From contig CP085323.1 in the NCBI GenBank assembly GCA_022870745.1, positions 3,100,001 through 3,164,000 on the forward strand: DNA of 64,000 bases. Direction: 5' to 3'. This DNA comes from Silvibacterium acidisoli. Lineage in GTDB: Bacteria; Acidobacteriota; Terriglobia; Terriglobales; Acidobacteriaceae. Shown here piece after piece: positions 1 through 17,660 of the stretch. The notes beneath the pieces were generated by a model that saw nothing but the letters and a program-made list of their open reading frames with translations, had not been told where the DNA came from and made no database searches. The translations under genes and the position numbers were made by a program. Every line of letters begins with the position of its first letter. Positions within the stretch are counted from its first letter, which is position 1.

Positions 1-1
1 C

Positions 2-1295: not shown

Positions 1296-1361
1296 ATGAA
1301 GCGCGTTCAACAATCCGACTGCCGTTGTTGTTGTCGCTTCGTCTCACCGCTCGGTGAATGA
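1296..1361 (+). CDS. Poly-cysteine leader peptide 1 (upstream of receptor 1)
   Basis: This is a 21-codon open frame starting ATG-AAG and ending TGA. Residues 9-13 read C-R-C-C-C, encoded TGC CGT TGT TGT TGT. It ends 139 bases before receptor 1 and has no convincing Shine-Dalgarno sequence; a promoter-like pair would put the transcript start at the ATG itself. Runs of cysteine codons in short upstream ORFs are known from mycobacteria as cysteine-responsive attenuators of sulfur operons. Four more such frames precede other genes in this block, so chance is unlikely. That it is translated and regulates receptor 1 and the sulfatase is inference. Confidence 0.65.
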   Translation: MKRVQQSDCRCCCRFVSPLGE

Positions 1362-1500
1362 TCAGGTTTTCCCGCCTCGCCTGGAATGTTCTTTCTACTT
1401 CCGCTAAGGCGACCCGCCTCATCCGCCGTCTCTAGTCCAATATTTTGATTGGATTCTCCGGCTCCGGTCTCTCTCGATTACGAATAAGGATCAGTTCGAT

Positions 1501-4500
1501 ATGCAAGTTCCGTTCTTTCCGGCGGGCGCGTCGCGCCGTCTTAGAAGCTTTTTGCCAGTGTTTGCCTATGCATTGCTTGCTGCCTTAGTGGTGCTCCTCC
1601 CGGCATTTTCCGCGTTTGGCCAGATCGTTACCGCGTCAGTCCGGGGTACAGTTCAAGACCCTGGAGGCGCCGTGATCGCGGGTGCGTCGGTAGACGCACT
1701 CAATACCGCTACCGGAGTACGCAACCATGTTGTTGCCGATGGCGGGGGCCGATTTGTATTCGCCTCGCTCGCGCCCGGAGGTCCGTACACGATCACGGTG
1801 ACAGCTAACGGCTTCAAGAGCGAGGATCGCACCGGTATTCATCTCGAGGTGAACCAAGTCGTGGACTTGGAGATCCCGCTGCAGCTTGGTAGCTCACAAC
1901 AGCGCGTGGAAGTACACGCAGATGCAACCCAGCTCGAAACGTCGACCGCCGCGCTCGGGCAGGTAATCGACAATCGCAACATCGTGGATCTTCCGCTTAA
2001 CCAGCGCAATGTCTACTCTCTGATCTTCCTCATGCCGGGTGTTACCGGCAGCGTGACCTACCAGTACAACAGTCTGAACATGTCAGTAAATGGAGGCCGT
2101 CCGGGTGCGACGAATCTCCTGCTCGACGGCATTCCATCTTCACCACCGCTCATCGTTCCCATCGGTGGTTTCGGAGCTTTTCCTTCCGTTGACGCTGTGC
2201 AGGAGTTCAAGGTCCAAACATCTTCCTACTCCGCTGAGTTCGGCCGCAGCGGCAGCGGTATCGTGAACGTGATTCTCAAGTCGGGAACCAACGATCTGCA
2301 CGGGAGCGCGTATGACTTCCTGCGCAACTCCGCTCTTGACGCGAACAATTGGTTCTCCAACCACAACGGTACCGCGCTCCCAAGCTTCAAACGCAACCAG
2401 TTTGGAGGCAGTGTCACTGGACCAGTGGTCATCCCTGGTCTCTACCACGGCCGCGATAAGACTTTTTTCATGTTTTCTTACGAAGGCCTGCGCCAGGGTA
2501 CCGGCTCGACGCTTACGACTACTGTACCGACCGCGCTCGAACGCACCGGCGACTTTTCACAAACTTCCTATACGATCTATGACCCAGAGACGACTGTTTC
2601 AGGAGCATCGACAAATTCGGGTTATCAACGAACCGCATTCGCAGGGAACAAAATTCCCGGTAACCGTATCGATTCGGTCGCGGCGGCTGTCGTGAACTAT
2701 TACCCAGGGCCGAACCACGCCTCGACTGCTGCCGGGCTGAACAACTTCTTCGCTGCAGGCGTGCAAACGCTCAATATCGATACCTACGACACGCGTGTGG
2801 ACGAGGTCATCAATGATCGCAACCGTTTCTTTGTGCGTTATTCGCGGCGTAACTTGCAGCAGCCACCCGTGCTTTATTTTCCGGCAGCGCAGCAGGTGGC
2901 CGAGGGAGGTAACTCAGAACCGCAGACTTCGAACAGCGCTGCGATCGACTACACGTTTACGGCCAGCCCAACATTCCTGGTCGACATCCCCTTTGGATTC
3001 TCGCGCACGGCGATTAACTTCGTGCCTGTGAGCGCTGGTTTCAATCCAACTACGCAGCTTGGCTTCCCCGGCTATATCGCATCGAATGCTGATCATCTGC
3101 TTTTCCCCGGCATTGCACCGACTAACTACTACACGCTCGGGGATGCCTCGCAGGGAGAAACCCGCGCCGGTGGCTTCAACATCTTCTCGATCGGTGTGAA
3201 CAACACGAAGGTTCAGGGGAACCACATCTTCAAGTTCGGAGGAGCAGCGTGGCTCCTGCAGGCTAACGATGTCGAGTCGGGAGCATCAACCGGCAGCTTC
3301 AATTTTACGAACGCGATCACTCAGGGGCCAGATCCGGACGTCGCAGCGGCAACAAGCGGGAATGCAATCGCATCGTTGCTCCTAGGTGTTGGCAGCTCCG
3401 GAACATATACCATCAACTCGAAGAACGCTGCGGCGAGCAGCAAATATTACGGTCTCTATGTGCAGGATGACTGGAAGGTGCAGCACAATGTCACCTTCAA
3501 CCTGGGTCTGCGCTACGACCTCGACATTCCCCGCACCGAGCGATACAACCGGATGGAGACCTTCGATCCGAATATCGCCTCGCCACTCGCTCAGACCGCG
3601 GGCGTTGCGGGACTGAAGGGCGGAACGGTCTTTGCTGGTGTAGACGGTCTCAGCCGCCGCCAGTTTGCGCCTCAGTACCACAACTTCGGACCGCGATTCG
3701 GATTCTCCTGGCAAGTCGATAATGATAGTGTCGTCCGCGGCGCTTACGGCGTCTACTACGGACCGTCGATGCGTTCGGCAGGCGCGACGATCGGCCAGGA
3801 AGGTTCCAGCGCAACCACGACCTACACCGGCAGTGCGGATGGATTGACGCCATCTGTCTATCTCAGCAACCCGTTTCCCAACGGACTCAACCAGCCGGCC
3901 AACAGTAGCCAGGGATTGCTCACCGGAATTGGATCCTCGTTTGAGAATTCACTTCGCGGTGACAATAAGGTGGGCTACACAGAAAATTGGAGCTTCGGTG
4001 TCCAGCGCCAGTTGCCATTCCAGGTTCTTCTGGACGTAGCCTATGTGGGCAGCCATGGCGTGCACCTGAACAAATCGGGCGAGTCGGACTGGAATGCCAA
4101 CCAACTCACGCCTGCCACGCTGGCTCAGGGTTCCGCTCTTCAGTCGAAAGTTGCCAATCCATTTTACGGCATCATTACAACCGGAACGCTTGCCGGCAAG
4201 ACCGTGCCACTTAGCTATCTCGAAGCGCCATTCCCGCAGTTCACGGCAGTGTATCTTTCCTATCTCACCGGCGGATATGCAGACTACAACAGCTTCCAAC
4301 TCAAGCTCAACAAGCAGCTCTCGCATGGGTTAAGTGCGCTGGTGTCCTATACGGGACAGAAACAGATCGACGATTACTCCGGTATCGAAAACGTTGGCAA
4401 CATCACGGGCGGTATTCAGAACATCTACAACCCGCGCGCGGAGCGTGCTGTTTCATCAAACGATGTTTCCGAGAACCTGACTATTAGTGCGATCTATAGC

Positions 4501-5016
4501 TTGCCATTCGGCCGTGGGCAAGAGTTTGCCTCGCACCTCAACCGTCCACTTGACCTCGTCATCGGTGGCTGGCAGGCCAATGGCATCCTCACAGAACACA
4601 GCGGTTTCCCGATCTCTGTTTCCGCGTCGAACACCTCGGATGCCGGAAATAACGTTGAGCGTCCTAACCTCACCGGCAAGTCTCCCAAGACCAGGGGGTC
4701 GGTGGAGTCGCGTGTGAATGACTACCTGAATATTGCAGCGTTCTCCCAGCCGGCAGCTTTCACCTTTGGCAATGCGCCGCGCACTCTCTCGGATGCGCGT
4801 ACGCCGGCGACGCACAATCTCGACTTCTCACTCTTCAAGAGCTTCCCTGTAACCCAACAGGTGCATGCCGAGTTTCGAGCGGAAGCCTTTAACCTGTTCA
4901 ACCAGGTCGTATTCGGAGCGCCGACTACGAGCATCACATCCACCTCCTTCGGTGCGATTACCAGCCAGCTCAACACACCCCGCGAAATTCAGTTCGCATT
5001 GAAGTTCCTCTTCTAA
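1501..5016 (+). CDS. Oar-like TonB-dependent receptor 1
   Basis: A 1171-residue outer-membrane protein. A signal peptide (hydrophobic stretch at about 16-38 ending SAFGQ) is followed by a carboxypeptidase-regulatory beta-sandwich (about 45-125, with GTVQDPGGAVIAGASV), a plug domain (about 140-260, with SVNGGRPGATNLLLDG) and a long beta-barrel ending in an aromatic residue (FALKFLF). The ATG has AAGGA ten bases upstream. Oar-like receptors are greatly expanded in Acidobacteria and take up large or scarce ligands across the outer membrane using TonB energy. A sulfatase gene follows 43 bases later, and a poly-Cys leader ORF precedes it, so a sulfated ligand is a reasonable inference. The exact substrate is unknown. 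Confidence 0.93.
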   Translation: MQVPFFPAGASRRLRSFLPVFAYALLAALVVLLPAFSAFGQIVTASVRGTVQDPGGAVIAGASVDALNTATGVRNHVVADGGGRFVFASLAPGGPYTITVTANGFKSEDRTGIHLEVNQVVDLEIPLQLGSSQQRVEVHADATQLETSTAALGQVIDNRNIVDLPLNQRNVYSLIFLMPGVTGSVTYQYNSLNMSVNGGRPGATNLLLDGIPSSPPLIVPIGGFGAFPSVDAVQEFKVQTSSYSAEFGRSGSGIVNVILKSGTNDLHGSAYDFLRNSALDANNWFSNHNGTALPSFKRNQFGGSVTGPVVIPGLYHGRDKTFFMFSYEGLRQGTGSTLTTTVPTALERTGDFSQTSYTIYDPETTVSGASTNSGYQRTAFAGNKIPGNRIDSVAAAVVNYYPGPNHASTAAGLNNFFAAGVQTLNIDTYDTRVDEVINDRNRFFVRYSRRNLQQPPVLYFPAAQQVAEGGNSEPQTSNSAAIDYTFTASPTFLVDIPFGFSRTAINFVPVSAGFNPTTQLGFPGYIASNADHLLFPGIAPTNYYTLGDASQGETRAGGFNIFSIGVNNTKVQGNHIFKFGGAAWLLQANDVESGASTGSFNFTNAITQGPDPDVAAATSGNAIASLLLGVGSSGTYTINSKNAAASSKYYGLYVQDDWKVQHNVTFNLGLRYDLDIPRTERYNRMETFDPNIASPLAQTAGVAGLKGGTVFAGVDGLSRRQFAPQYHNFGPRFGFSWQVDNDSVVRGAYGVYYGPSMRSAGATIGQEGSSATTTYTGSADGLTPSVYLSNPFPNGLNQPANSSQGLLTGIGSSFENSLRGDNKVGYTENWSFGVQRQLPFQVLLDVAYVGSHGVHLNKSGESDWNANQLTPATLAQGSALQSKVANPFYGIITTGTLAGKTVPLSYLEAPFPQFTAVYLSYLTGGYADYNSFQLKLNKQLSHGLSALVSYTGQKQIDDYSGIENVGNITGGIQNIYNPRAERAVSSNDVSENLTISAIYSLPFGRGQEFASHLNRPLDLVIGGWQANGILTEHSGFPISVSASNTSDAGNNVERPNLTGKSPKTRGSVESRVNDYLNIAAFSQPAAFTFGNAPRTLSDARTPATHNLDFSLFKSFPVTQQVHAEFRAEAFNLFNQVVFGAPTTSITSTSFGAITSQLNTPREIQFALKFLF

Positions 5017-5059
5017 TGCAAGTGAGATCACTCGATTTTGAATTTCCTTGGAGATTTGT

Positions 5060-6514
5060 ATGACCGATACCATCAAGACTGCGAGCACCACACGCCGTGA
5101 ATTTATGCAGAGCACGCTAGCAGTAGCAGGAACTATGTTGGCAAGTGCTCCGCTGGCACGTGCGGCCGCGACCGAAAGGCGCCCGAATCTCATCTTTTTT
5201 CTCGGAGAAGGCCAGCGGGCTGACGCGCTCTCTATCGCCGGTAATCCCATTTTGAAAACACCGAACCATGATCGGGTCGGCAAAGAGGGCATTCGATTCC
5301 GTAATGCTTTCTGCACGAATGCCTTGTGCGCGCCTGCGCGTGCCAGCATTCTCAGTGGCCGCTACTCGCGCTCGACGGGTGCGCTCTCGAACGATGACTT
5401 GAAACGGCCGCTGCCCTCAGATGTCCCGCTCTTCACCGACCTGCTCAAGCAGGCCGGGTACGAGATTGCCATCCTCGGCAAAGTGCACGTTCACAATGGC
5501 GTCGAAGAGCGGAACTGGGATTACTACTTCGGACACAACAACCCGGGCAACAATTACGCCAATCCGTTCTTCAAGGAAGGCCGCAATGGACAGGTCGGCG
5601 ATGAGAAGCAGTATTTCGGGGTTTACCCTGACGATCTGACCGTAGACAAAGCACTCGCCTGGCTTGAACAGGATCGAGGCGACAAACCGTTTTGCCTTCT
5701 GGTCTGGTTTGTAGCGCCGCATGAGCCCTTCTTCCGTGCACGCCGTCATTTCGATCTCTACCGCGATACGGTGATCCACAAACCAGCGACCTTCGACGAT
5801 GATCTGAAAGGCTGGCCCGGCAAACCGAAGGGTTTCATCGACGCCGAGAATAAGATCGGCACCACGCCCACCCATGTTGCATGCGGTTCTCATGAAGGTA
5901 TCGTCAAGGATTACTACGCGGGTCTCGTTGCGGTCGATGACAACATTGGACGCATCTTCGATTACCTGGAGAAGAAGAACATTCTCGACGATACCGCCAT
6001 CGTGCAGAGCTCGGACCACGGCTATTTTCTCGGCGAGTGGCGTCTCTTCGACAAGCGCCTCATGCATGAGCCATCGATCCGTGTGCCTTTGCAGATTCGA
6101 TACCCGAAGCGGATCCCCGCTGGAACCGTACGCGACGAGATGGTCCTTGACATCGACCTTGCGCCGACATTCCTCGATCTTGCCGGAGTGTCTGCACCCG
6201 AGCACCTCGACGGCAAGAGCGTTCTGCCGCTCGCGAAGCAACAGGACCCTCACTTCCGAGAGGAGTGGTACTACGAATATTACGAGTGGCCAAACCCGGA
6301 GCGTGTTCGTCCGCATCGCGGCATCCGTACCGAACGCTACAAGCTCATTCACTACCACGAGGATCCGCAGGAGTTCGAACTCTACGATCTTAAGAACGAT
6401 CCGGACGAAACGAAGAATCTCTACGGTATGCCGGATCAGGCGGCGGTGCAGAAGCACCTCTTTGAACGTCTGGACGCCTTACAATCGGCGGTTCCGAAAC
6501 ACGCAGTTGTCTAG
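5060..6514 (+). CDS. Tat-exported sulfatase (alkaline phosphatase superfamily)
   Basis: 484 residues from the ATG at 5060, which has TGGAG seven bases upstream; a TTG at 5048 is a less likely start. The N-terminus carries a Tat motif (TRREFMQSTLAVAG) and an Ala-rich cleavage region. The type I sulfatase signature C90-A-P-A-R94 is intact; its Cys is converted to formylglycine in active enzymes. The metal-binding core (PNLIFFLGEGQRADAL, SSDHGYFLGEW) is present. Such enzymes hydrolyse sulfate esters, here probably in the periplasm, releasing sulfate. It lies just behind receptor 1 in the same unit and so is probably under the same cysteine leader. The substrate (choline sulfate, aryl sulfate or sulfated glycan) cannot be told. 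Confidence 0.92.
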   Translation: MTDTIKTASTTRREFMQSTLAVAGTMLASAPLARAAATERRPNLIFFLGEGQRADALSIAGNPILKTPNHDRVGKEGIRFRNAFCTNALCAPARASILSGRYSRSTGALSNDDLKRPLPSDVPLFTDLLKQAGYEIAILGKVHVHNGVEERNWDYYFGHNNPGNNYANPFFKEGRNGQVGDEKQYFGVYPDDLTVDKALAWLEQDRGDKPFCLLVWFVAPHEPFFRARRHFDLYRDTVIHKPATFDDDLKGWPGKPKGFIDAENKIGTTPTHVACGSHEGIVKDYYAGLVAVDDNIGRIFDYLEKKNILDDTAIVQSSDHGYFLGEWRLFDKRLMHEPSIRVPLQIRYPKRIPAGTVRDEMVLDIDLAPTFLDLAGVSAPEHLDGKSVLPLAKQQDPHFREEWYYEYYEWPNPERVRPHRGIRTERYKLIHYHEDPQEFELYDLKNDPDETKNLYGMPDQAAVQKHLFERLDALQSAVPKHAVV

Positions 6515-6604: not shown

Positions 6605-6633
6605 TTGAACTGGAAGAGAAGATCACTTATAGT
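6605..6633 (+). promoter_or_regulatory. Sigma-70-like promoter for leader ORF 2 / M14 gene
   Basis: TTGAAC (6605-6610), a 17-bp spacer and TATAGT (6628-6633) form a near-consensus promoter. The start point would fall near 6640, a few bases before the leader ATG at 6647. An inverted repeat TATAAGTGAT / ATCACTTATA (6596-6605 and 6622-6631) overlaps both hexamers and could be an operator. Confidence 0.55.
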
Positions 6634-6646: not shown

Positions 6647-6727
6647 ATGAAGCGTTTCTCCAACAAGTTGCTCGCTTTTTCCAGCGCTCCTCGCGCTGCG
6701 CGAGTCTGTTGTTGCTACTACCAGTAG
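6647..6727 (+). CDS. Poly-cysteine leader peptide 2 (upstream of M14 peptidase)
   Basis: A 26-codon frame beginning ATG-AAG-CGT; residues 21-26 read C-C-C-Y-Y-Q before a TAG stop. It lies between a good promoter and the M14 gene, whose ATG is 118 bases downstream. There is no obvious Shine-Dalgarno sequence. The codons after the Cys run contain CTACC, which can pair with GGTAG in the ribosome binding region of the main gene. Its form and position match the other leaders in this block. Translation is inferred. Confidence 0.65.
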   Translation: MKRFSNKLLAFSSAPRAARVCCCYYQ

Positions 6728-6825
6728 CGGTTCTTACTTTCTCTCTTAACATCTCTTTTTCATAAGTTCTCGTGTGTGGGCGTGCGTGTGCAGCGCACCG
6801 CATGGGCGTTGCCAACGTTGTGCAC

Positions 6826-6845: not shown

Positions 6846-9569
6846 ATGAAGTCCTTGCGTGGCTTTAAGTCTTTGGCGATGTTGGGTGTCGTGTTCACGT
6901 CATCCGCTTTATGGGCGCAGGTTCCCAGTCCGGAGCAGTTCTTCGGATTCAAAATGGGCGATGACCACAAGTTGGCGCGCTACGACAAGATCGTGGACTA
7001 CTTTAACGCGGTCGCGGCAAAGTCGGACCGGGTGCATGTGAGGAATCTCGGCCCAACAACATTGGGCAAGCCTTTCGTGATGGCAGAGATTTCATCTGGC
7101 GATACAGTTGCGCATCTCGACCACTACAAAGATCTCGAAAAGAAGCTGTACTTTCAGGGTGGTGCGCCGACTGACGCGGAGCGTGACACCATTCTGGCTT
7201 CGGGCAAGGCTGTGGTGCTGATCACTAATAACATCCACTCGACCGAGATCGGGAGCTCGCAGGAATCCGTGGAGCTCTTGTACAAGCTCGCTACTGACGA
7301 TTCACCGCGGGTAAAGAAGATCCTCGACAATGTGATCCTGTTGTTGGTTCCTTCGCTGAATCCTGACGGCCAGCAGCTGGTGGTGGACTGGTACAACAAA
7401 TACCTGGGCACTCCGAACGAGGGGGCACAGACGCCGTTTCTGTGGCATCCGTATGTGGGTCACGACGACAACCGGGACGAATACCTGTTCTCACAAAAGG
7501 AAAGCCGGCTGATCGCCGAAGTGCTATGGCATGACTGGTTCCCATCGGTGTGGCTGGACGAGCACCAGCAGGGCAGTGAAGGCTCGCGAATCTTCACGAT
7601 GCCGGCGACGGATCCGATCAACCCGAATGTCGATCCGCTGATCTACAGGCTGACAACGGTGTATGGGCAGGAACAGGCCGCTGCACTGGAGCTGGCGGGA
7701 AAAGACGGAATCACCTACAACTCGACCTATACGAACTTCTGGCCGGGAGCCATGGCCTGGACGGGCTGGTGGCACAACCAGATCGGGCTGCTGACGGAGG
7801 TAGCAAGCGCACGAATCGCTTCTCCTATTTATCAGAAGAAAGCCGACTTGAAGAAGGATCTTGCGGAGGCGCAATCGGCCTCGGGTGGACGATCGCTTGA
7901 GGCTCCGGACAGGTTCGCTTCCGGCGAGCAGAGACCGACCGGGGCGGAGAACGATCCGCTGCCGGCGCCGAAGGATATTACCGCACGGCTTGATTATCCG
8001 CGGCCATGGCTGGGCGGCGAATGGCGCCTGAAGGACATTGTGGACTACGAGTTGATCGCAACGCTCGCTCTGCTGGATACGGCGGCCGATAACAGGCCGC
8101 AATTGCTGACTCAGATCTACGGCATCAATCAGCGGACGATCGCGGAAGGGAAAGACGGAGATATCGGTTTCGGTACAGGCAAGGCTTATGCAGCGATATT
8201 GCCACTAGACGGGCAGCATGACGAAAACGAGATTTCGCAGCTCGTGGACAAGCTGCTCATCGGCGGCGTGGAAATTTACAAGTCCAATAAGGACTTCGAG
8301 CAGGACGGTCATAAATACGCGGCCGGAAGCTATGTGATCCCGTTCAACCAGGTGTTCGGCCGGTATGTGAAGGACCTGTTGGAGAAGCAGACTTACCCGG
8401 AAGTGCATAGGGCACCGGGTGCTCCGGCTGAAGCTCCTTATGACGTCTCGGCATGGTCGCTGGGTTTGCAGTTTGGGGTGAACACGGTGTACGCGAAAAC
8501 TTCGTTGCCTCAGGATCTAGCTCTTGAAAAGGTGGAGCAGGCTCCGAAGCCCAAGCTGGAGGCAGCGAAGACCAAGGGCGGATGGGTGCTGGATTACAAC
8601 GGTGCGGACGATGCGCGGGTGGTAAACCGATTGTTAAAGGCTGGTGCTCATGTGAGCCTGGTGCGCGATAACACGAATGGTCGCGCGTATGCAGTCGTGA
8701 GCGGCAGCTCGAATATCTTCCATGATGCGACCGCGGATTACCAGGTGGTCGATGCGACTGCGGCTCCGAAATTGGATGCAGGCGTGGCTGTGCGGCAGCC
8801 GCGAATCGGGCTGTACCAATCCTGGACGGCCAATATGGACGAGGGATGGACGCGGTGGGTATTGGAGCACTATGAGTTCCCCTACACGACGCTCCACAAC
8901 ACCGATGTGAAGTCGGGCAAGCTGCATGATCGCTTCGACGTGCTGGTGCTGCCCGATGCACGAGTCAAAGAGATACTGGGGGGGCGGGACAATAAGACAA
9001 CGCCGACCGAGTACAAGGGCGGCATCGGCGAAGAGGGCTGGAAGTCAATCGAACAATTTCTTCATGACGGCGGGACGGTCATTGCATTGGGGGATGCCTC
9101 GGACCTGCTGCTGAACAAGTTGCCGTTACCGGTAAATGATGTGAAGGCTACATTGAAGCCGGCGCAACACTTCGCTCCCGGAACCATCGTGAACCTGCAG
9201 GTGGACACGACCAGCCCCATCGGCCTCGGCGTCTCTCCGGCAACCTACGGGTTCTATATCAACTCTCCCTTCTTCCAACTCACCGAGGGGTTTGCATCGC
9301 AGCAGGTGGACGTGGTCGCACGCTACCCGAACACCGAAGTGAAAGCCTCAGGCTGGCTGCGAGGAGAGGAGTTTCAATTGGGACAGGCAGCGGTGGTTTC
9401 TGCGCGATTGAACCCTGGCAAGGTAGTCCTCTTTGGAATTCGCCCGCAGCACAGAGCTCAGACGCATGCCACATTTCCGCTCTTCTTCAACGCTCTGTAT
9501 TGGTCGACAGAGCAGGATGGTACGGGGAGTGGGGCTGCGGTCCCCGGCAAAGGAGCACACGGCGAATAG
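6846..9569 (+). CDS. Secreted M14-family zinc metallopeptidase
   Basis: A 907-residue protein with a Sec signal peptide (about 1-25, ending LWAQ). The M14 carboxypeptidase zinc site is present: H131-S-T-E134, then SLNPDG, and a third His in WLDEHQQGSEG. The C-terminal half resembles the glutamine-amidotransferase-like accessory region seen in long bacterial M14 proteins of the Bacteroidetes/Acidobacteria type. The enzyme should trim C-terminal residues or gamma-glutamyl-like bonds of peptides in the periplasm. It stands alone between two terminators. The poly-Cys leader and the hairpin over its ribosome binding site suggest induction when cysteine is short, so a role in releasing sulfur amino acids from peptides is plausible but unproven. 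Confidence 0.88.
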   Translation: MKSLRGFKSLAMLGVVFTSSALWAQVPSPEQFFGFKMGDDHKLARYDKIVDYFNAVAAKSDRVHVRNLGPTTLGKPFVMAEISSGDTVAHLDHYKDLEKKLYFQGGAPTDAERDTILASGKAVVLITNNIHSTEIGSSQESVELLYKLATDDSPRVKKILDNVILLLVPSLNPDGQQLVVDWYNKYLGTPNEGAQTPFLWHPYVGHDDNRDEYLFSQKESRLIAEVLWHDWFPSVWLDEHQQGSEGSRIFTMPATDPINPNVDPLIYRLTTVYGQEQAAALELAGKDGITYNSTYTNFWPGAMAWTGWWHNQIGLLTEVASARIASPIYQKKADLKKDLAEAQSASGGRSLEAPDRFASGEQRPTGAENDPLPAPKDITARLDYPRPWLGGEWRLKDIVDYELIATLALLDTAADNRPQLLTQIYGINQRTIAEGKDGDIGFGTGKAYAAILPLDGQHDENEISQLVDKLLIGGVEIYKSNKDFEQDGHKYAAGSYVIPFNQVFGRYVKDLLEKQTYPEVHRAPGAPAEAPYDVSAWSLGLQFGVNTVYAKTSLPQDLALEKVEQAPKPKLEAAKTKGGWVLDYNGADDARVVNRLLKAGAHVSLVRDNTNGRAYAVVSGSSNIFHDATADYQVVDATAAPKLDAGVAVRQPRIGLYQSWTANMDEGWTRWVLEHYEFPYTTLHNTDVKSGKLHDRFDVLVLPDARVKEILGGRDNKTTPTEYKGGIGEEGWKSIEQFLHDGGTVIALGDASDLLLNKLPLPVNDVKATLKPAQHFAPGTIVNLQVDTTSPIGLGVSPATYGFYINSPFFQLTEGFASQQVDVVARYPNTEVKASGWLRGEEFQLGQAAVVSARLNPGKVVLFGIRPQHRAQTHATFPLFFNALYWSTEQDGTGSGAAVPGKGAHGE

Positions 9570-9740: not shown

Positions 9741-12700
9741 CTAGAAGGAGTAGCGCAGGGCAAACTGGAATTGACGCGGGCCTCCGGTCGCAGTAGGGAC
9801 CGAGGCGTTGACAGTGGATGTGATGACTCCGGTCGTGCCCTGCGTGATGCCGGTGCCGGTAGAGCCGCCGTAGGCTGCCGATGGATTGTTGAAGTTGGGA
9901 TGATTGAGGATGTTGAAGGTGTCTGCACGGAACTCTACCGACTGCTCGTTGGCGAACCGGACTCGCTTGATAAGGGTAAGATCCCAATCCTGTAGGCCCG
10001 GACCGCGAATGCTGTCGAAGCCGGCGGATCCGTAGCTGTAGACGTAGCCGGCGCCTCCGTAGTTGGTATAGTTTGTACCGTTCTCGGGGGCATTGGAACG
10101 GTAGGCAGCGGTATTGAACCAGTCCTGCCGGGTATGAGTCCTATGGCCAGTGTTGCCGTCGATGCTTGCATTCTGGTCGACGCCGGGGACGACAAAGGCG
10201 CGGTCGCTGGCACCGGTATAGGACGCCAACGCATCCGTTGTGCTGGTGCTGATTGGCCGGCCAGATTGGAAGGTGAGAATGGTCGCGGCCTGCCAGTTGC
10301 CGATGATGTTGTTCACAACCGGACCGACTTCGCCGAGGAAACGATGGCCGGTGCCGATGGGTAAGTCGTACTGGCCGGTGGTGACGGAGCGAAACTCCTG
10401 GTCGAAGGCAGAGGGGCCGTAATTGGAAGCGAACTCGTATGGATTTTGCAGGCTGGAGACCTCCAGCGATTTGGCCCAGACAAGGTATGACTGGAAGCTG
10501 AGGCCAGTCCTGAAGCGTCGTTCGGCGCGCAGGAGCACCGAGTTGTAGTTGGAGGAGAAGCCGTCGCTCAGGTAGCTGATGCCAGACCAACGAGACTCGG
10601 ATCCGATGGTGTTGAACGGGCGAAGAGCGTTGACCTGGGTGGAGCGCGCCGGATTGGCGTTGCGTGCGGCGAGTTCAGGAATATTGATGTTTTGCGTGCT
10701 GACGTTGTGAAGTGTGCGGGACCCCTGATAGCTGATTTCGAAAAGGGCAAAGTTGTGGAAGTCATGCTGGACGCCCAGCGAGTACTGCTGGGTGTAGAGG
10801 GTCCCGATATGCGGATCAGCAGTCGTGATGGAGATGCTGTTTGTAGTTTGCGTGCCTGAAGTGCCAAACGCTGAAGGCCCCCACAGATACGGATTAGTCG
10901 TGACGCCGTCTGCGTCAGGAGTAGGCGCAGTGAAAGACTTGGTGAGAAGAAACGGCGCTCCAAGCCCCATCGCCGGGTACCAGGTCTGTACCTGAGGAAT
11001 ACCGTAGTAGATACCGTAGCCGCCGCGGATCGCGGTCTGCTCCTGGCCGAAGAGGCGATAGGCAAAACCTACGCGGGGAGCGAAGTTGGTAAGCGGCGCT
11101 GCCCACAGATCATGGAAGACCGGTTGCGTGCCGGATTGTTGAAGAAGTCCGGTGGTGTTATTGAGTGTGTAGGAAGGGCCACGGCCGGTGAGAATCTGAT
11201 TGTTCACAGGGTCGAAGCGGTCGATGAGGTTGTAGCCTTCGCGCTCTGTGCCGGTGTACTCCCAACGCAGGCCATAGCTGAGGGTAAGTGAGTTGGAAGC
11301 TTTCCACTCGTCCTGCACATAGGCTGCGCCGGTGAACTGTTCGGGATATTGATTGACATTGCCGGTGCCGTAAGAGTCGGAGGTGATGTAGCCGAGCAGG
11401 AAGTCTGCGAAGGCATTCTGAATATTGCCAAGACCGCCGGTGTATTGGCCGCCGAAGGAGAAGTAGCCGCGTCCGGTGGTCTCAAAGAAAGAGTGCTTGA
11501 AGAAACGAAGCGCATCGGCGCCCGCCTTGAGCGTGTGGTTGCCGACGACCCAGGTGATGGTGTCAGAAGCCTGGACGGTGTTGTCGCCGCGCCATTGGGG
11601 ATTGTTCGACGCGCCGATGGAACTGATGCCGGTGATGGCAACGGCGGGAACACCTGTGTTGCCGTTCGTGGAAGGCTGCATGTAGCCGTTGCCTTGTGGC
11701 AGGCCAAGTTGAGCGACCACATCGCCCTGGTCTGCGTCCTGGTTGCCGTAAGAGGCGTCCATGCGATTGAACCCGATCCGGAACTCATTCAGCAGAGAAG
11801 GAGTAAAGGTATGCAGCAAGGAGATGGATCCGTGCTGGTAAATGTGGTCGCCTGCGCCGCCAAATCCAGGGACTACAGAATTCGAAACGACAAGGTCACC
11901 GATGGTGCCGGTGTCACGGCCCTCAAGAATGGTGTAGATTCCGCTGAGGTTGTCCCTCCGCGTGAGCACGTCGTCCACACGAAAGCTGCCCTGATTCTCA
12001 TCCGCCGTGTTGAGTTTGTGGTTAGCGAAGACGCCAACCGATCCGTTTTGCGAGGTGGAAGCAGGGAAGTATTTGAGAAGGATCTGGCTTGCGGCGCTGA
12101 CGCGGCTCGCGGGCACAACATATTGGCCATTGGCATTGGTTGCAAAAGGCAGGCCGGTCGTAGGATCGAGGATTCTGGAAGTGAAGAGCGCATCGCCACT
12201 GGAGGTATAGCTGCCGCCTTTCCAGTCGTTAAGAGGGCTGGTGCCACTAACCGCTGGATCGGCCGATTGGCGTTGTGCTTCGAATGCGGCGAAGAAGAAG
12301 GTCTTGTCTTTGACGAAGCGTCCGCCGAGGGCTCCACCAAATTGCTTGGTCTGGCCTGATGGTGGTGGTAGCGGTGATGCAGTGAAGTTGTACTGAGGAG
12401 AGTTAATTTTGTTATTGCGATAGAAGGTGTATGCACTGCCGTGATAGCTGTTCGTGCCAGAGCGGCTTGTGAGAACGATCTGGCCACCATTTTTGCGGCC
12501 GAACTCAGCTGGAGCTTCGCCTGTAACGATGCGGAACTCTTGAATAGCATCGAGTGATGGACGAACGGTCGGCTGCCCCGTGGTCCAATCTGTGTCATCG
12601 GAGCCGTCGAGGATGTAGTTGTTGTTGGAGGGGATGATGCCTGCGACGACGAAGCCGCCGCGGTTGGCGAGAGAGTCGCCCTGAGCCGTTGGAGAAACGT

Positions 12701-13187
12701 TGGGATCAAGCTGGGCCAACTGCCAGAAGTTGCGGCTGTTGGTCGGTAGTTCCTCCAGCTTTCGCTGATCGATAACGGTGCCGTTAACAGGATTTTCAGA
12801 CTGCAGAAGGATGCCGGTGGATGTGACCTGGACCTGCTGGACAACGGAACTCACGCCCAACGTTGCATCGATACGGGCTTCCTGCTGGATGTTGAGAACT
12901 ACGCCCGTATAGTCGCTGGGCTGGAACCCGGAAGCCTGGATGTGGACGGTGTAGGTGGCGGCTGGAAGTTCGGGAACAACGTAATCGCCAGTCTTATTGG
13001 TGGTAACAGTGTGAGCGATGTTGGTAGCAGGATTGAGCACGGTAACGGTTGCCCCGGAAACGACCGACCCCTGAGAGTCGCGAACGGTTCCGCGCAAGGT
13101 TGCGGAGACGTTTTGAGCAAACGCGGAAGAGAAGACGGAAAAAAGGCTGGCGGCAATGGCAATGACGGCCAGTGTTCTTCGCTGCAT
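9741..13187 (-). CDS. Oar-like TonB-dependent receptor 2
   Basis: 1148 residues when started at the ATG at 13187. That ATG has AAGGAA upstream and begins a proper signal peptide (MQRRTLAVIAIAASLF... ending SAFAQ). The frame runs 65 codons further upstream without a signal sequence, so the longer start is rejected. A carboxypeptidase-regulatory domain (GTVRDSQGSVVSGATVTVL), a plug and a barrel ending FQFALRYSF follow. It is the last gene on this strand before the bidirectional terminator. The LLM monooxygenase/ATP-grasp pair is transcribed toward it from 568 bp upstream, and that gap holds a cysteine leader ORF. The ligand is unknown; an organosulfur compound is inferred from context only. Confidence 0.93.
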   Translation of the reverse strand: MQRRTLAVIAIAASLFSVFSSAFAQNVSATLRGTVRDSQGSVVSGATVTVLNPATNIAHTVTTNKTGDYVVPELPAATYTVHIQASGFQPSDYTGVVLNIQQEARIDATLGVSSVVQQVQVTSTGILLQSENPVNGTVIDQRKLEELPTNSRNFWQLAQLDPNVSPTAQGDSLANRGGFVVAGIIPSNNNYILDGSDDTDWTTGQPTVRPSLDAIQEFRIVTGEAPAEFGRKNGGQIVLTSRSGTNSYHGSAYTFYRNNKINSPQYNFTASPLPPPSGQTKQFGGALGGRFVKDKTFFFAAFEAQRQSADPAVSGTSPLNDWKGGSYTSSGDALFTSRILDPTTGLPFATNANGQYVVPASRVSAASQILLKYFPASTSQNGSVGVFANHKLNTADENQGSFRVDDVLTRRDNLSGIYTILEGRDTGTIGDLVVSNSVVPGFGGAGDHIYQHGSISLLHTFTPSLLNEFRIGFNRMDASYGNQDADQGDVVAQLGLPQGNGYMQPSTNGNTGVPAVAITGISSIGASNNPQWRGDNTVQASDTITWVVGNHTLKAGADALRFFKHSFFETTGRGYFSFGGQYTGGLGNIQNAFADFLLGYITSDSYGTGNVNQYPEQFTGAAYVQDEWKASNSLTLSYGLRWEYTGTEREGYNLIDRFDPVNNQILTGRGPSYTLNNTTGLLQQSGTQPVFHDLWAAPLTNFAPRVGFAYRLFGQEQTAIRGGYGIYYGIPQVQTWYPAMGLGAPFLLTKSFTAPTPDADGVTTNPYLWGPSAFGTSGTQTTNSISITTADPHIGTLYTQQYSLGVQHDFHNFALFEISYQGSRTLHNVSTQNINIPELAARNANPARSTQVNALRPFNTIGSESRWSGISYLSDGFSSNYNSVLLRAERRFRTGLSFQSYLVWAKSLEVSSLQNPYEFASNYGPSAFDQEFRSVTTGQYDLPIGTGHRFLGEVGPVVNNIIGNWQAATILTFQSGRPISTSTTDALASYTGASDRAFVVPGVDQNASIDGNTGHRTHTRQDWFNTAAYRSNAPENGTNYTNYGGAGYVYSYGSAGFDSIRGPGLQDWDLTLIKRVRFANEQSVEFRADTFNILNHPNFNNPSAAYGGSTGTGITQGTTGVITSTVNASVPTATGGPRQFQFALRYSF

Positions 13188-13521
13188 TGAATATTTCCTT
13201 TCGAGCAGTAGCGATGTTGAGAGAGCCCGAGCCCTGCAATAGGCGGGTCGGAGCAGGCAGAAGATCGTGACATCGGCCCAGTGGCAGAAGTCGCCAGGCA
13301 TGGGCTTCCCGCTTTTGAGCGGACCCATGCGGCGAAGCACACGCATGCCCGGGCCTGCTGGAAGTAGAGATAGCCTCGGCAATCAGGTCGTTGAGCTCGT
13401 CATGAACCTGACAAAGCTACGCACCGGATCGCAGAGCCCTGCTCGTAACGCAACGGCGGTATTACTCCGGCGCTAACTTAGCGAGTCTGGATTGGAATGG
13501 ATTTTGGAGTGAGAAACTGGG

Positions 13522-13754: not shown

Positions 13755-14798
13755 TTATCCCTGTGGACGGATGACGTCGCGACTGAATCTCTCCATCTCT
13801 TCGAGTTGTGGACTGAACTGGAGAAGGAGAAGGTCGACACCCACTTCTTCGAATCTCGCAACCTGTTTCCGCACCTGCTCGGCAGTACCGAACAAGTTCG
13901 AACGAAGTCCGCGATTTGAGACGGAATACTCCTGGAGCGACATCTTCTGCTCGAGCTGTGTGCCCTGAAGCCACTGCTCGTAGTTTGCGAAGCCCTTCGC
14001 GCTCGCGTTGACGTTTGTAATCCGTTCCAGCTCCTCGCGGACTTCGGCTTCGGTATCGCGGACAAAAGAATACCCTGCGACCCCGAACTGCATGGGCGGA
14101 AGTCCAAGCTTGTCGCGGCGCTTTCTCATATCTTCAATCTTTGTGGCGACATACTCCGGTGAGTCGCCGTGCATCACGTAAGCGTCGCACTTCTCCGCGA
14201 TAAGATTCTTCGCTGCTTCAGATTCGCCACCTGCATAAATCACCGGGCGTGGAGAACGTACGGGTTTCGGTTCCAGTACGGTGTTCTCGGTGCGGTAGTG
14301 TTTTCCGGTGAAGCTGAACAGATCCTGGCACCATGCTCCGTTCACGACATCCAACCACTCCGAGGTGCGCTCATAGCGATCGTCATGCTTCTCGAAGTGG
14401 ACGCCGTACATGCGCGCCTCCTGCTCCCACCAAGACGAAACCACATTTAGAGCGAGTCGACCATTGCTGATCTGGTCGATGTTTGCAGCCTGTTTCGCAA
14501 AGAGAGCCGGGGAATGAAAGGTGGGGCGCACGGCGACCATGAGCTCGAGCGTGCTGGTGATCGCGGCGAGTGCCGCCGCAGTCGACCATGCGTCGAGGCT
14601 TGGAGCCTCAATGCCCTTGATGTCGTTCAGGTTAAGCTCGGCGATCAAAGACAGCGCGTAGCCAAGCTCCTCACTGCGCCGTGCGAGCTTGCTCACATAC
14701 TGCCAACTCGCCTCCATCCCTTCGTCACCTACGTTGCGTAGCCACCCGCCGAACACCGGCATCCAGTAGCCATATCGGATCTGACCTTTAGCCGGCAC
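13755..14798 (-). CDS. LLM-class FMNH2-dependent monooxygenase (SfnG/SsuD-like)
   Basis: 347 residues forming a luciferase-like TIM barrel. Typical features include IRYGYWMPVFGGWLRN at the N-terminus, LAELMVAVRP-like strand wording (LELMVAVRPTFHSPALFAKQAA), GRLALNVVSSWW and a C-terminal HVLLLQFSP-like end (VDLLLLQFSPQLEEMERF). The closest named relatives I recognise are alkanesulfonate and dimethylsulfone monooxygenases, which split C-S bonds to release sulfite using FMNH2 from a partner reductase. No reductase is nearby. It overlaps the upstream ATP-grasp gene by 11 bases, so the two are co-translated. Its place among a sulfatase, receptors and poly-Cys leaders supports an organosulfur substrate. 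The family is sure; the substrate is inferred. Confidence 0.85.
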   Translation of the reverse strand: MPAKGQIRYGYWMPVFGGWLRNVGDEGMEASWQYVSKLARRSEELGYALSLIAELNLNDIKGIEAPSLDAWSTAAALAAITSTLELMVAVRPTFHSPALFAKQAANIDQISNGRLALNVVSSWWEQEARMYGVHFEKHDDRYERTSEWLDVVNGAWCQDLFSFTGKHYRTENTVLEPKPVRSPRPVIYAGGESEAAKNLIAEKCDAYVMHGDSPEYVATKIEDMRKRRDKLGLPPMQFGVAGYSFVRDTEAEVREELERITNVNASAKGFANYEQWLQGTQLEQKMSLQEYSVSNRGLRSNLFGTAEQVRKQVARFEEVGVDLLLLQFSPQLEEMERFSRDVIRPQG

Positions 14799-15789
14799 GT
14801 TCCACCTCTTCGATCAGGAAATCTGCAAGTTTAACGAATGGGTCGAAACCAATCACCCTTGGTGCATCCGCTACGAAGTTGGAAAGCGCATTCACATCGT
14901 AGTAGTAGATCTCACCGTCTCGATCGTCCACGATGTATTCCACTCCGCCAACATCGATGCCCGCTGCCTGGACGATGCGCTCGATATTCGCGATCACATC
15001 CGCGGGAGGCGTGTAGCCTTCAACCTTTAATCCGGCTTTCGATGCCTCCAGTACGCAGGCGTTGTTAAGGCTTTCGCCTCTGGCAGTCTGGCAGATATCG
15101 GCGGGGCAGAGATCGAATGTTTCGCCGTTCAGGTAGACGCGGATGGCATACAGGTATCGTCTCGCTAACGTCTCGACGCGGGTAATGTAGCCGCCTCGCG
15201 CCGGAACAAATTCCTGCACCAGGGCGACATTATCGTAGCCAAGATCGATCTGGCCTCCACGAACTGCAGCCTCCAGTTCTTCACGGGTGTTGAATCGGAC
15301 GATGCCTTTGCCGCTGCCTCCGATGTTGGCTTTCACGATGATCGGAAACCGCAGCCCCTCTACGGCCGCCAGGGCCTGTTCGGGCGCATGAATGATTCGC
15401 GAAGGTAGATAGCGGATCCCAAGCGAGCGCAAGAGCGAGTGTTGAGACGACTTTGAAACTTCGAAGCGAAACGCTTGGGCTCCATTGATGACGCGTTTAC
15501 CGAGCAAGTCCAGATGATCGAGGTATGCCAGTGTATGGAAGATTGTAGATCCATTCCCGCGGCTGTTTGCCGAGGGGCTCATACGATTGAAGATCACCTT
15601 GAATGGGGCATCCGACCCAATGTCGAAGAAGGCATCGGGTGCGTAGACTTTTGCAAATGAGAATCCGCGCCGGTCAAGCTCGGCAAAGATGGGAGCAAAC
15701 CACTGGGGATGTTCATAAAGGAATGCGAGTGAGCCCTCTCGGGCTGGCGGCTGGATCAGAGTTGGAGCGCTCAGTTCTGCGTCTGGCAT
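14788..15789 (-). CDS. ATP-grasp ligase (RimK-like)
   Basis: 333 residues with the ATP-grasp order: a pre-ATP-grasp region, a central domain with FPIIVKANIGGSGKGI (ATP-binding Lys and Gly loop) and a C-terminal half with YDVNALSNFV (metal-binding Asn). These enzymes ligate a carboxylate to an amine or thiol via acyl-phosphate. The ATG has AAGGA upstream. It overlaps the LLM monooxygenase gene by 11 bases, so the pair should act in one pathway. No precursor peptide is seen next to it. Glutathione-, peptide- or amino-acid-conjugating roles are all possible. It has no signal peptide and so is cytoplasmic. Confidence 0.87.
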   Translation of the reverse strand: MPDAELSAPTLIQPPAREGSLAFLYEHPQWFAPIFAELDRRGFSFAKVYAPDAFFDIGSDAPFKVIFNRMSPSANSRGNGSTIFHTLAYLDHLDLLGKRVINGAQAFRFEVSKSSQHSLLRSLGIRYLPSRIIHAPEQALAAVEGLRFPIIVKANIGGSGKGIVRFNTREELEAAVRGGQIDLGYDNVALVQEFVPARGGYITRVETLARRYLYAIRVYLNGETFDLCPADICQTARGESLNNACVLEASKAGLKVEGYTPPADVIANIERIVQAAGIDVGGVEYIVDDRDGEIYYYDVNALSNFVADAPRVIGFDPFVKLADFLIEEVERAG

Positions 15790-16313
15790 GCAGCATCCTT
15801 ATAACTATCGGTTACTTATTGCTGAGGTATATTCGATGAGCTTCCCGGTGTTCGCATGCTTCTTCATTTCGAGAACCGAGTTGCAACATCCGGTAATTTC
15901 ACCAGTTCGATCGTGAAGAGGCTGCGAATTACTTCAGCGACCATACTACATTCATCCAAAATGAGAACGCGATTCATCCCACTCTCACTAGAGACAAATC
16001 GAGATACTCTGCGCGGGAGGAGCGGTGCACGAGTGGAGATGCGTGCCCGTTCTGAGGCGTATCCCCTGAAGTCGATATCTCGAGCAGTTGCACCACACGC
16101 GCTCCACATCTTCCGCAGGATGCGCCAATTACCGGCTCGATCGCGGAGCGAAGGCATATTCCGCAGTAGTTTATCCCTGTCGAACTGGAGACCCACCCGA
16201 GACGTACACATGGGTGATTCGTTCCGATCATTACGGCATATAGTTCTGAACTTTTCACGATGCCTCCCTGATGGTTGCCTTCGTGTCGTAAATCGCTACG
16301 TTTGGGTGGAGAG
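15790..16313. other. Intergenic region, no secure gene
   Basis: 524 bp between the ATP-grasp start and the PIG-L stop. A minus-strand frame (about 15974-16231) has a zinc-ribbon-like spacing (CGIC...CGRC) but no ribosome binding site, and its other part is uncharacteristic. No poly-Cys leader is found here, in contrast to the neighbouring units. The ATP-grasp/LLM promoter must lie in this stretch. Confidence 0.5.
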
Positions 16314-17189
16314 TCATCTCGGTCCTTTCAGAGATGAAGATGGAAGAGCGAGCAAGCGGAAGAGCGAGCTGGCAGCGGGGCTGGCGTCAATGGAACTAAC
16401 CCAGATGTATTCCCGGGGATCTTTGCCGCACATGGTCTGGAACAGGCCCTGGGATTTATGTTCCGCAATCATCCAATGGACGATGATCTGGTAGCTCAGT
16501 GAGTCGTGGAAGCCGAAAGTGGTTGTTCGATCAAAGGCGTATGCGTAGGAAGCAGGCCATGTTTCGTTAGACGGAAAAGTTCGGCCATCGGTATCGAAAC
16601 CCAGAAGGGCAGGGCGTGCGTCGGTTGGCAAAGCCTGAATCACGGTAGATGCCAGCTCCGTGGTCTCCTGGTGATGACCGTGCATACTTGTACGAGGAAG
16701 AATGCAGAATATGTAGCGGTAATGTTCGCGCTTGACCAAGGATGAGATTGTGCCCGTGATCAGCGTTATATTCCATCCGCTTTTTTGCCCATTTGATTGA
16801 TCTGTCGTGAACGCAGTATCTTTCTGATTGAGAAAATAGTGGTGCCTTATGCCGAGCACTCTCCCTGCTCGCACTGCTTCTCTTCGCCGGATGGCAGGCA
16901 ACGACTGACGACCGATTGTTTCGTTCGTGAGGTTTTTTCCGTAATAGGGTTCTGCAAGTGTTGAGTATCGATAGCCGCCTTCTCCATCCGTGATAATCAG
17001 CTCATCGACATCCCCACGAAGCTGCACCGCCATCCTGTAAACGGTTGCCGCGAAGTAATATTCGTCATCGGGATGAGCAACGACGATCAGCGTCTTTCCC
17101 GGCACCTGAGAGAGTGCCGGGAGTGAGGTTACAAGGATCGGGAGAAGCGAAATGAACAGAAATGCTCGGCTTGCCAGCATGCGGCGCAT
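16314..17189 (-). CDS. Exported PIG-L-family deacetylase/amidase
   Basis: 291 residues with a signal peptide (about 1-29, ending PALSQ). The family zinc motif AHPDDE (residues 38-43) and the second zinc motif HGHHQ are intact. PIG-L enzymes remove N-acetyl groups from GlcNAc-linked compounds. The family includes MshB, BshB and the thiol-conjugate amidase Mca, so a thiol conjugate is a possible substrate here. The start has GTGAGGGAGTTCC before it; this strong ribosome binding site is exactly complementary to the bases just after leader ORF 4. The unit is divergent from receptor 3. The enzyme class is sure; the substrate is inferred. Confidence 0.9.
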   Translation of the reverse strand: MRRMLASRAFLFISLLPILVTSLPALSQVPGKTLIVVAHPDDEYYFAATVYRMAVQLRGDVDELIITDGEGGYRYSTLAEPYYGKNLTNETIGRQSLPAIRRREAVRAGRVLGIRHHYFLNQKDTAFTTDQSNGQKSGWNITLITGTISSLVKREHYRYIFCILPRTSMHGHHQETTELASTVIQALPTDARPALLGFDTDGRTFPSNETWPASYAYAFDRTTTFGFHDSLSYQIIVHWMIAEHKSQGLFQTMCGKDPREYIWVSSIDASPAASSLFRLLALPSSSLKGPR

Positions 17190-17192
17190 GGA

Positions 17193-17362
17193 ACTCCCTC
17201 ACAAATTTTGCGCAATTTAAGTTGGCATGACCCTGCAAAGTCCGTATTTGAGGAGCGTTCTCGCAAATCGGCATAACCCAGAAAATATTCTGGCGCGATG
17301 TCATCCTCGAAGACGAGACAGTCTCAAGATTGTGGCTGCAGGGAAGAGGGCAAGGAGGGAGT
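17193..17362 (-). promoter_or_regulatory. Anti-Shine-Dalgarno pairing in the PIG-L leader
   Basis: On the minus strand ACTCCCTC (17355-17362), overlapping the stop codon of leader ORF 4, is a perfect 8-base complement of GAGGGAGT (17193-17200), the PIG-L ribosome binding site. A ribosome stalled on the two Cys codons would cover the first element and free the second. Confidence 0.5.
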
Positions 17363-17439
17363 CAACAACAGCGAAGTCGTACCTCAATTGATGAGGAATG
17401 AACTGTGACTGCAGTCAGGTATTGCAGAAGCACCTTCAT
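17362..17439 (-). CDS. Cysteine leader peptide 4 (upstream of PIG-L)
   Basis: A 25-codon minus-strand frame starting ATG-AAG-GTG and ending R-L-R-C-C then TGA (CGC TGT TGT TGA). It ends 172 bases before the PIG-L gene. It has two Cys codons rather than three, but the stop follows at once and an anti-Shine-Dalgarno segment starts at the stop. Leader ORFs 4 and 5 are divergent from a shared 149-bp promoter region. Weaker on its own than the CCC leaders, it gains support from the perfect complementarity. Confidence 0.52.
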   Translation of the reverse strand: MKVLLQYLTAVTVHSSSIEVRLRCC

Positions 17440-17573
17440 TGTTTCTGAGGCTAGCACTACACTGCCTGGATGGCAATCACGGAGATTAAAGTGGTGACGC
17501 GGCTTAAATTTCCTACGCTATGTGTTTCCCAGAATATTCCGTGGCGAAATTGAGAACCATCAATGATGGCATC

Positions 17574-17588
17574 TGCTATGCTAACGGC
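17574..17588 (+). promoter_or_regulatory. Extended -10 element for leader ORF 5
   Basis: TGCTATGCT (17574-17582) is an extended -10. The expected start point seven bases later is the ATG of leader ORF 5 at 17589, which would make it leaderless. No good -35 at 17 bp is seen. Confidence 0.35.
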
Positions 17589-17660
17589 ATGCAGCGTGCG
17601 AACATTCTGTGTTGTTGCTCCTCACGGCCTTGTCCTGTTGAGTTGAGCAGTGCGCGCTAA
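17589..17660 (+). CDS. Poly-cysteine leader peptide 5 (upstream of receptor 3)
   Basis: A 23-codon frame, ATG-CAG-CGT onward, with C-C-C at residues 8-10 (TGT TGT TGC) and a fourth Cys at 15, ending TAA. It lies 115 bases before the receptor 3 ATG. The Cys codons can pair with AGCAGCAA at 17683-17690, which in turn can pair with GCTGCT at 17720-17725, so mutually exclusive folds are possible. Placement and composition match the other leaders of the block. Confidence 0.66.
   Translation: MQRANILCCCSSRPCPVELSSAR

Follow-up and report, generated by a model that had tools for sequence, protein, structure and literature searches.

Poly-cysteine leader peptides before sulfur and scavenging genes suggest a candidate cysteine-responsive regulon in Acidobacteriaceae

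Classical trp and his attenuators combine leader codons, an early hairpin, competing helices and a terminator, and the attenuators formed by poly-cysteine (poly-Cys) short open reading frames (sORFs) in mycobacteria are read out by opening of the Shine-Dalgarno (SD) sequence of the next gene. Five sORFs with adjacent Cys codons were located in a window of 64,000 nt, the whole stretch of DNA analysed here (positions 3,100,001-3,164,000 of the forward strand of contig CP085323.1, Silvibacterium acidisoli; genome 5.36 Mb in one contig), where they precede three TonB receptor genes, an M14 peptidase-family gene and a PIG-L deacetylase gene. In Actinobacteria, leader peptides with Cys runs have been predicted before cys operons, and the excerpts consulted of that study describe no conserved terminator hairpins in Mycobacterium (PMC1262725). 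Leader peptides of this kind were shown in M. smegmatis by Canestrari et al. 2020, as cited in extracts of PMC9031893 and PMC9094748. A further system, the uORFC-8-2 motif of Rhodobacterales cysS, consists, according to excerpts of PMC8632094, of an upstream ORF (uORF) with tandem Cys codons, mostly UGC, followed by an intrinsic terminator. Among the titles listed as matches to full-text literature searches, none concerned a poly-Cys leader in Acidobacteriota or before TonB/Oar receptors.

The sORFs described here resemble the mycobacterial and actinobacterial leaders, as those are portrayed in the excerpted literature, in that they are short, seem to be leaderless, contain contiguous Cys codons and lie before cysteine and sulfur operons. 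They differ from the leaders in the consulted portion of PMC1262725 in belonging to another phylum and in the presence of intrinsic terminators between leader and cysD at 41 of 78 loci. Their targets also differ, including TonB/Oar receptors, a sulfatase and an SfnG-like monooxygenase, and folding revealed no effect on SD accessibility. Tandem Cys codons in a uORF followed by an intrinsic terminator are shared with uORFC-8-2 as excerpted from PMC8632094; unlike that motif, the targets here are sulfate assimilation and scavenging genes rather than cysS, and UGU rather than UGC is dominant. The cysD group further shares leader codons and terminator and, as predicted, an early hairpin and competing helices with the trp and his attenuators, from which it would differ in sensing Cys-tRNA and in a near-leaderless start that lacks an SD sequence.

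A first-pass annotation of this DNA had proposed five poly-Cys leaders forming a cysteine-sensing sulfur regulon. All five sORFs were recovered at the positions it gave, each on the strand of its downstream gene, with lengths of 21-26 codons:

1296-1361, plus strand: poly-Cys leader 1 (MKRVQQSDCRCCCRFVSPLGE), 205 nt before receptor 1
6647-6727, plus strand: poly-Cys leader 2, the M14 leader (MKRFSNKLLAFSSAPRAARVCCCYYQ; ending RVCCCYYQ-stop), 199 nt before the M14 gene
13599-13522, minus strand: poly-Cys leader 3, the receptor 2 leader (MHSEHTLRASKVTQRPVPGARYCCC-stop; ending GARYCCC-stop), 253 nt before the receptor 2 ATG
17439-17362, minus strand: poly-Cys leader 4, the PIG-L leader (MKVLLQYLTAVTVHSSSIEVRLRCC-stop; ending RLRCC-stop), 250 nt before PIG-L
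17589-17660, plus strand: poly-Cys leader 5, the receptor 3 leader (MQRANILCCCSSRPCPVELSSAR), with a CCC run kept at three orthologous loci

We consider it very probable, on the sequence comparisons below, that these sORFs encode leader peptides of cysteine-responsive attenuators governing a sulfur regulon of the Acidobacteriaceae. Their clustering is improbable by chance, as the annotation had argued. Among nine gene starts in the block, scanned over 300 nt upstream for ATG-started sORFs of at most 45 aa, four had a CCC sORF and five a CC sORF; 2000 dinucleotide shuffles gave means of 0.022 (maximum 1) and 0.49 (maximum 3), respectively. A larger sample of 875,835 bases (approximately 16 % of the genome, taken mostly around receptors and hence non-random; genes of at least 200 aa) contained a CCC sORF within 300 nt upstream of only eight of 396 gene starts, of which this block contributed four, the cysD block two and the remaining DNA two, and a CC sORF before 30 of the 396.

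The decisive evidence for the putative regulon is located outside the window, and comprises the cysDNH leader of this genome together with cysD leaders across the family. A block at 79-83 kb carries a receptor with the poly-Cys sORFs MSLALQICSCCCVSPMQLA and MTASIHNSTCLAACCCRPCCRAL, followed by MRIICHRCCCLRACPTSHGCQFASA 185 nt ahead of cysD-cysN-cysH (gene names assigned by NCBIfam), and these three were the only ATG-started CCC sORFs of at most 60 aa between 71,000 and 87,000. The canonical operon for sulfate assimilation in this genome is therefore itself preceded by a leader of this kind, a finding that lends support to the proposed regulon. The nearest named relatives of this cysD are from Acidobacteriaceae, e.g. 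Silvibacterium, Edaphobacter and Granulicella. At 2.91 Mb, a NirA-type sulfite/nitrite reductase gene was also preceded, at 171 nt, by a Cys-rich sORF (...ACHACC...), and a second PF01077 gene was found at 4.71 Mb. As judged from such predicted leaders, the regulon extends beyond receptors. As a separate observation, the two sORFs upstream of the receptor adjoining cysD stand in tandem, at 79204 and 79340.

In an initial survey of one genome per genus, a CC sORF preceded 13 of 18 cysD loci (in one case encoding 46 aa and lying 329 nt away). We then identified cysD in 153 of 300 family genomes and read 90 loci, comprising 30 as returned and 60 hand-picked across the remaining listed rows. Within 400 nt upstream, a CC sORF was present at 78 of the 90 and a CCC sORF at 54; within 300 nt the counts were 77 and 54, set against averages of 6.0 (maximum 11) and 0.25 (maximum 1) in 40 shuffles. 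Enrichment over shuffled sequence is thus clear both in the window and at cysD across the family. The next commonest doublets upstream of cysD were RR (31) and LL (30). As a control, 296 other gene starts in 60 of the fetched cysD loci yielded 32 with a CC and 11 with a CCC sORF; the 11, judged by eye from their N-termini, comprised eight Oar-type receptors near cysD, one siroheme-type methyltransferase, one cysH and one unassigned gene. Carriers of the cysD leader include Edaphobacter lichenicola M8US30, Granulicella sp. dw_53, Terriglobus albidus DSM 26559 and Acidobacterium sp. S8, the first three of which are strain records and not metagenome-assembled genomes.

Reductases of the PF01077 family displayed a comparable association, with a CC sORF within 400 nt at 22 of 30 loci and a run of CCC or longer at 13, across 22 genera. 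Typing of ten of the 30 gave eight NirA/sulfite-reductase-like genes (seven with a leader, one without) and two dsrA genes, both without a leader. A description of the PF01077 genes as plain sulfite reductases was dropped, given that the eight fell below all cut-offs and the other two were dsrA. Presence of dsrA above the model cut-off in two Acidobacteriaceae genomes (G008 and G038), in each case with no poly-Cys leader, is recorded here as an observation in its own right. At stand-alone cysH loci, an ATG-started CC sORF was found at none of 12. In eight of these 12 genomes, a PF01077 match lay on the contig and strand of cysH, 2.3-2.5 kb upstream of it, and both of the two upstream reductases that were read (in G048 and G005) had a leader, so the cysH negative may reflect an operon effect.

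For the pair formed by an ATP-grasp (RimK-like) ligase and a luciferase-like (LLM) flavin monooxygenase, a CC sORF occurred within 500 nt of the match start at 12 of 30 loci and a CCC sORF at ten. In two more ATP-grasp neighbourhoods (L196 and L194) a CCC leader was found on a receptor, in one case followed by a sulfatase homolog. Across 20 ATP-grasp neighbourhoods and two M14 loci, seven of 282 gene starts had a poly-Cys sORF within 350 nt, belonging to three ATP-grasp genes, the L196 and L194 receptors and two others. The ligase adjoins the SfnG-like monooxygenase (13755-15789 in the window) in 19 of 20 fetched loci (L191-L210, the exception being L207). The pair may represent an undescribed organosulfur pathway.

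Outside the family, a CC sORF was found at three of 20 cysD loci from 19 genomes of the phylum. Among 80 named loci, 75 were read, with a CC sORF in 13 of 35 Acidobacteriota rows (one with just 16 nt of upstream sequence), in none of the five rows labelled Bryobacterales/Bryobacteraceae, and in four of 40 other rows. The remaining five comprised two that lacked upstream sequence and three (182-351 nt) in which no CC sORF was found. The predicted leader is mainly a feature of Acidobacteriaceae. In another Acidobacteriota family, an sORF MSSACSCCCSCLARAACCCACMRPATGW was noted ahead of a gene that by eye resembles a TauE/SafE-type permease (locus L308, 4007-4898).

Cys runs of the leaders comprised TGT and TGC codons at 157:49 (11 vs 3 in the window leaders), against 499:2102 in long genes of the DNA read. 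An SD-like 4-mer preceded six of 78 leader ATGs vs 58 of 90 cysD ATGs, and none of the five window leaders had one. A TGNTANNNT element occurred 8-12 nt before the ATG with 33 matches over the 78 cysD leaders, peaking at 15 matches at 10 nt; each leader was assumed to begin at the first ATG of its longest frame, in several cases probably a false start, so these promoter counts are rough. Pattern matching also placed this element 6-8 nt ahead of the ATG of window leaders 1, 4 and 5. A -10-like element close to the ATG combined with few SD motifs suggests that translation of the leader probably takes place on a nearly leaderless transcript, the starts being predicted. The start signals and the one terminator-like hairpin predicted at the window leaders were as follows:

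1280..1288, plus strand: predicted extended -10 (TGATAAGTT), a pattern match, 7 nt before the leader 1 ATG
6628..6633, plus strand: predicted -10 (TATAGT), with a -35-like TTGAAC at 6605, 13 nt before the leader 2 ATG
17448..17456, minus strand: predicted extended -10 (TGCTAGCCT), 8 nt before the leader 4 ATG
17574..17582, plus strand: predicted extended -10 (TGCTATGCT), 6 nt before the leader 5 ATG
6712..6730, plus strand: terminator-like hairpin TTGCTACT-ACC-AGTAGCGG followed by TTCTTACTT, overlapping the leader 2 Cys codons

Between the leader stop and cysD, a fixed rule identified an intrinsic terminator at 41 of 78 loci vs 2.8 expected, with textbook cases at L279, L260, L275, L274 and L280. 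Terminator-like sites were not in excess over positions 1-19000 of the window as a whole (18 vs 16.8 in shuffles), and Rfam 15 at gathering score returned no match in the window and just one tRNA in 15 cysD loci. The largest alignable group of cysD leaders, A1 (20 sequences), resolved into five segments: an early hairpin 1:2 that directly follows the Cys codons, a 2:3 pairing that is invariant (CGGGTG:CACCCG), a terminator 3:4 and a competing helix 4:5. In helices 2:3 and 4:5, eight pairs were changed on both sides vs 3.4 when shuffled (0 of 500 shuffles as high), all of them in 4:5; covariation was not found in helices 1:2 and 3:4 of A1. By eye, the cysD leader of this genome has the same segment order in other letters. 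In A1, the Cys run is also followed by a conserved peptide tail resembling SNIFDGC, which the RNA hairpin and GGGTG segment may explain better than the peptide does. Compared with shuffled sequence, the spacer was more stable (mean z -1.63) and the leader hairpin slightly so (-0.66). Pairing of leader tail and spacer averaged a z of -0.72 across 71 leaders, being weak as a general rule and strong in one subgroup; the folded sequences are related, so P values of the pairing and folding comparisons are non-independent.

These features suggest a mechanism in which the readout at cysD is likely an intrinsic terminator and not the mycobacterial translational mode. Translation of the leaders, stalling, the role of cysteine as signal and a shared mode of action for all five window leaders are our inference. 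Transcription would begin at or a few bases before the leader ATG, and the leader would be translated from a nearly leaderless mRNA. With Cys-tRNA plentiful, the ribosome would clear the Cys codons, finish the leader and cover segment 2, upon which, in the cysD case, terminator 3:4 would form and transcription would halt ahead of the sulfur gene. With Cys-tRNA scarce, the ribosome would stall on the rare TGT run and hide segment 1, an arm of the early hairpin; the leader tail (GGGTG-type) could then pair with the 5' arm of the terminator, so that 2:3 and 4:5 would be favoured and transcription would continue.

Several results weigh against this reading. No CC sORF was present within 400 nt at 12 of the 90 cysD regions, and no clear strict terminator was found after leaders 1, 3, 4 and 5. 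A complement to the terminator 5' arm in the leader tail outperformed shuffles (P of 0.05 or less) in only five of 41 cases. When 53 cysD leaders were folded, SD accessibility did not differ between stalled and finished ribosomes (0.262 vs 0.259; 8 up, 9 down). Reductase models scored below cut-off, so sulfite and nitrite reductases are inseparable by name, hence our term NirA-type sulfite/nitrite reductases. An unframed pattern, ATG-N18-48-TGTTGTTGY, showed no excess genome-wide (59 matches vs 55 when read backwards), implying that the signal lies in frame and position. The broad pattern TGYTGYTGY gave 1138 genome-wide matches vs 624 for the backward pattern, and the narrower pattern also matched coding DNA; the surroundings of 12 matches were inspected, of which two, in the cysD block, preceded a likely target gene, and further in-frame matches lay at 2923775, 3410971, 4641754 and 4766307. 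Relatives of the window genes gave mixed results. A CC sORF was found within 450 nt in just two of 14 relatives of receptor 1 (two of five at 51-70 % identity, in one case at a distance of 424 nt, and none of nine at 37-44 %), and in two of seven relatives of receptor 3 at 41-46 % identity. Of two M14 orthologs (61-62 % identity), L132 lacked a CC sORF over the 600 nt preceding the match and L133 had only a 49 aa CC frame approximately 450 nt away, which makes leader 2 the least secure despite the terminator-like hairpin over its Cys codons. Receptor 3 orthologs at 74-76 % identity kept the CCC run in three of three, followed by S-S and C-P, with diverged flanks. Conservation of the Cys run thus holds at cysD, the NirA-type reductases, part of the ATP-grasp/LLM pairs and receptor 3, but not at M14 (none of two comparable), and it is poor at receptor 1.

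Other explanations share some of this evidence. Mycobacterial-style translational attenuation, whereby a stalled ribosome would keep the SD of the next gene open with no termination involved, draws on leaderless poly-Cys sORFs being a known mycobacterial arrangement (per extracts of PMC9031893) and on the lack of a clear terminator after four of the window leaders; the strong enrichment of intrinsic terminators before cysD and the equal SD accessibility in folding make it unlikely, and SD opening as the readout was set aside as unsupported by the 53 folded leaders. Rho-dependent attenuation of the TnaC kind is possible, if doubtful, and would apply at least to leaders 3 and 4, where the Cys run stands immediately ahead of the stop and is followed by a C-rich, G-poor stretch (C16/G3 and C18/G5, respectively, in the next 40 nt); a ribosome stalled at these stop-proximal codons would cover a C-rich Rho-loading site. 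Consistent with this, C exceeds G after the stop in 73 of 78 cysD leaders, and a Rho model has been put forward for actinobacterial cys leaders in the excerpts of PMC1262725. Against it, base composition is no reliable guide to rut sites, intrinsic terminators occur instead at many cysD leaders, and leader 5 is followed by no C-rich stretch (C10/G11). For leaders 3 and 4 taken by themselves, a TnaC-like readout and an intrinsic terminator are equally likely.

That the sORFs encode small Cys-rich peptides acting as proteins in metal or redox binding would suit their composition, including the many Cys residues of some cysD leaders (e.g. L212), but is very improbable considering that the sequence outside the Cys run varies between groups and that a position in cis to sulfur genes, rare TGT codons and frequent terminators would be unexpected for a peptide product. 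Chance clustering picked out by eye is more improbable still: the block was selected post hoc and CC sORFs precede approximately 8-11 % of genes (30/396 and 32/296), yet CCC sORFs are far rarer (0.02 in shuffles over nine genes) and recur before cysD and before PF01077 reductases in 22 genera. Individual leaders, namely those of M14 and receptor 1, could have arisen by chance. Cysteine-responsive attenuation remains our preferred explanation for the group.

A CCC sORF is not a general feature of receptors in this genome. Of 117 first-look receptor candidates, 65 were scored, and five of these had a CCC sORF within 500 nt upstream: three in the window, one at 79468 near cysD and one 449 nt away from its sORF. 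A general receptor feature was accordingly rejected; the sORF instead marks particular receptors. Receptor 4, outside the 65, was correctly described in the first-pass annotation as having no leader, there being no ATG-started CC sORF on its strand over 500 nt upstream. The sORF at 449 nt (MFRKDAFACCCRR..., 4534584-4534616) could be a further distant leader or a chance occurrence. Beyond these counts, there is a reasonable though far from certain case that poly-Cys attenuation is a family-wide sulfur switch of Acidobacteriaceae, in which many units each have their own leader, and that the leader marks which few of the 65 or more orphan Oar receptors of a genome and which orphan enzymes (ATP-grasp/LLM, PIG-L, M14) take part in sulfur scavenging. 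Acidobacteria, which abound in soil, have scores of outer-membrane receptors with undefined cargo. If the proposal is true, the substrate class could be read from the 5' leader alone, and a cis-acting tag for cysteine starvation would reveal the receptors feeding sulfur metabolism, a prediction directly testable in the strains that carry cysD leaders. Leaderless poly-Cys attenuation would also have arisen or persisted beyond Actinobacteria, here tied to intrinsic terminators.

Profile searches with Pfam bore out the gene names first given to the block, which contains the following genes:

1501..5016, plus strand: receptor 1, an Oar-like TonB receptor (OMP_b-brl_4; Pfam PF25183, 785 bits)
5048..6514, plus strand: sulfatase downstream of receptor 1 (Pfam PF00884/PF16347; C-A-P-A-R motif)
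6846..9569, plus strand: M14 zinc carboxypeptidase-family protein (Pfam PF00246)
9741..13382, minus strand: receptor 2 (first ATG 13346; Pfam PF25183, 639 bits)
13755..14798, minus strand: LLM flavin monooxygenase, SfnG/SsuD-like (Pfam PF00296; TIGR04021 SfnG 232 bits, cut-off 383; PDB 3rao, 8vw6, 8t0u)
14788..15789, minus strand: ATP-grasp (RimK-like) ligase (profile match), adjoining the LLM gene as in 19 of 20 fetched loci of relatives
16314..17189, minus strand: PIG-L deacetylase (Pfam PF02585; BshB2 match weak)
17776..21258, plus strand: receptor 3 (Pfam PF25183, 688 bits)
21258..22391, plus strand: aminotransferase, overlapping the receptor 3 stop (Pfam PF00155)

We take the C-A-P-A-R motif of the sulfatase to be its active site. 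PIG-L is the first gene of a minus-strand run that continues with the ATP-grasp, LLM and receptor 2 genes. The LLM protein is nearest to the SfnG/SsuD group, and its solved relatives include alkanesulfonate and dimethylsulfone monooxygenases; its score of 232 bits against a cut-off of 383 means that it is not an SfnG member by that model. Further downstream, two copies of a 588-base stretch (24027-24614 and 34729-35316, approximately 10.7 kb apart) are identical at all 588 bases. They contain an ORF with an integrase core (rve), found by scanning the first copy, and likely represent a recent pair of insertion sequences.

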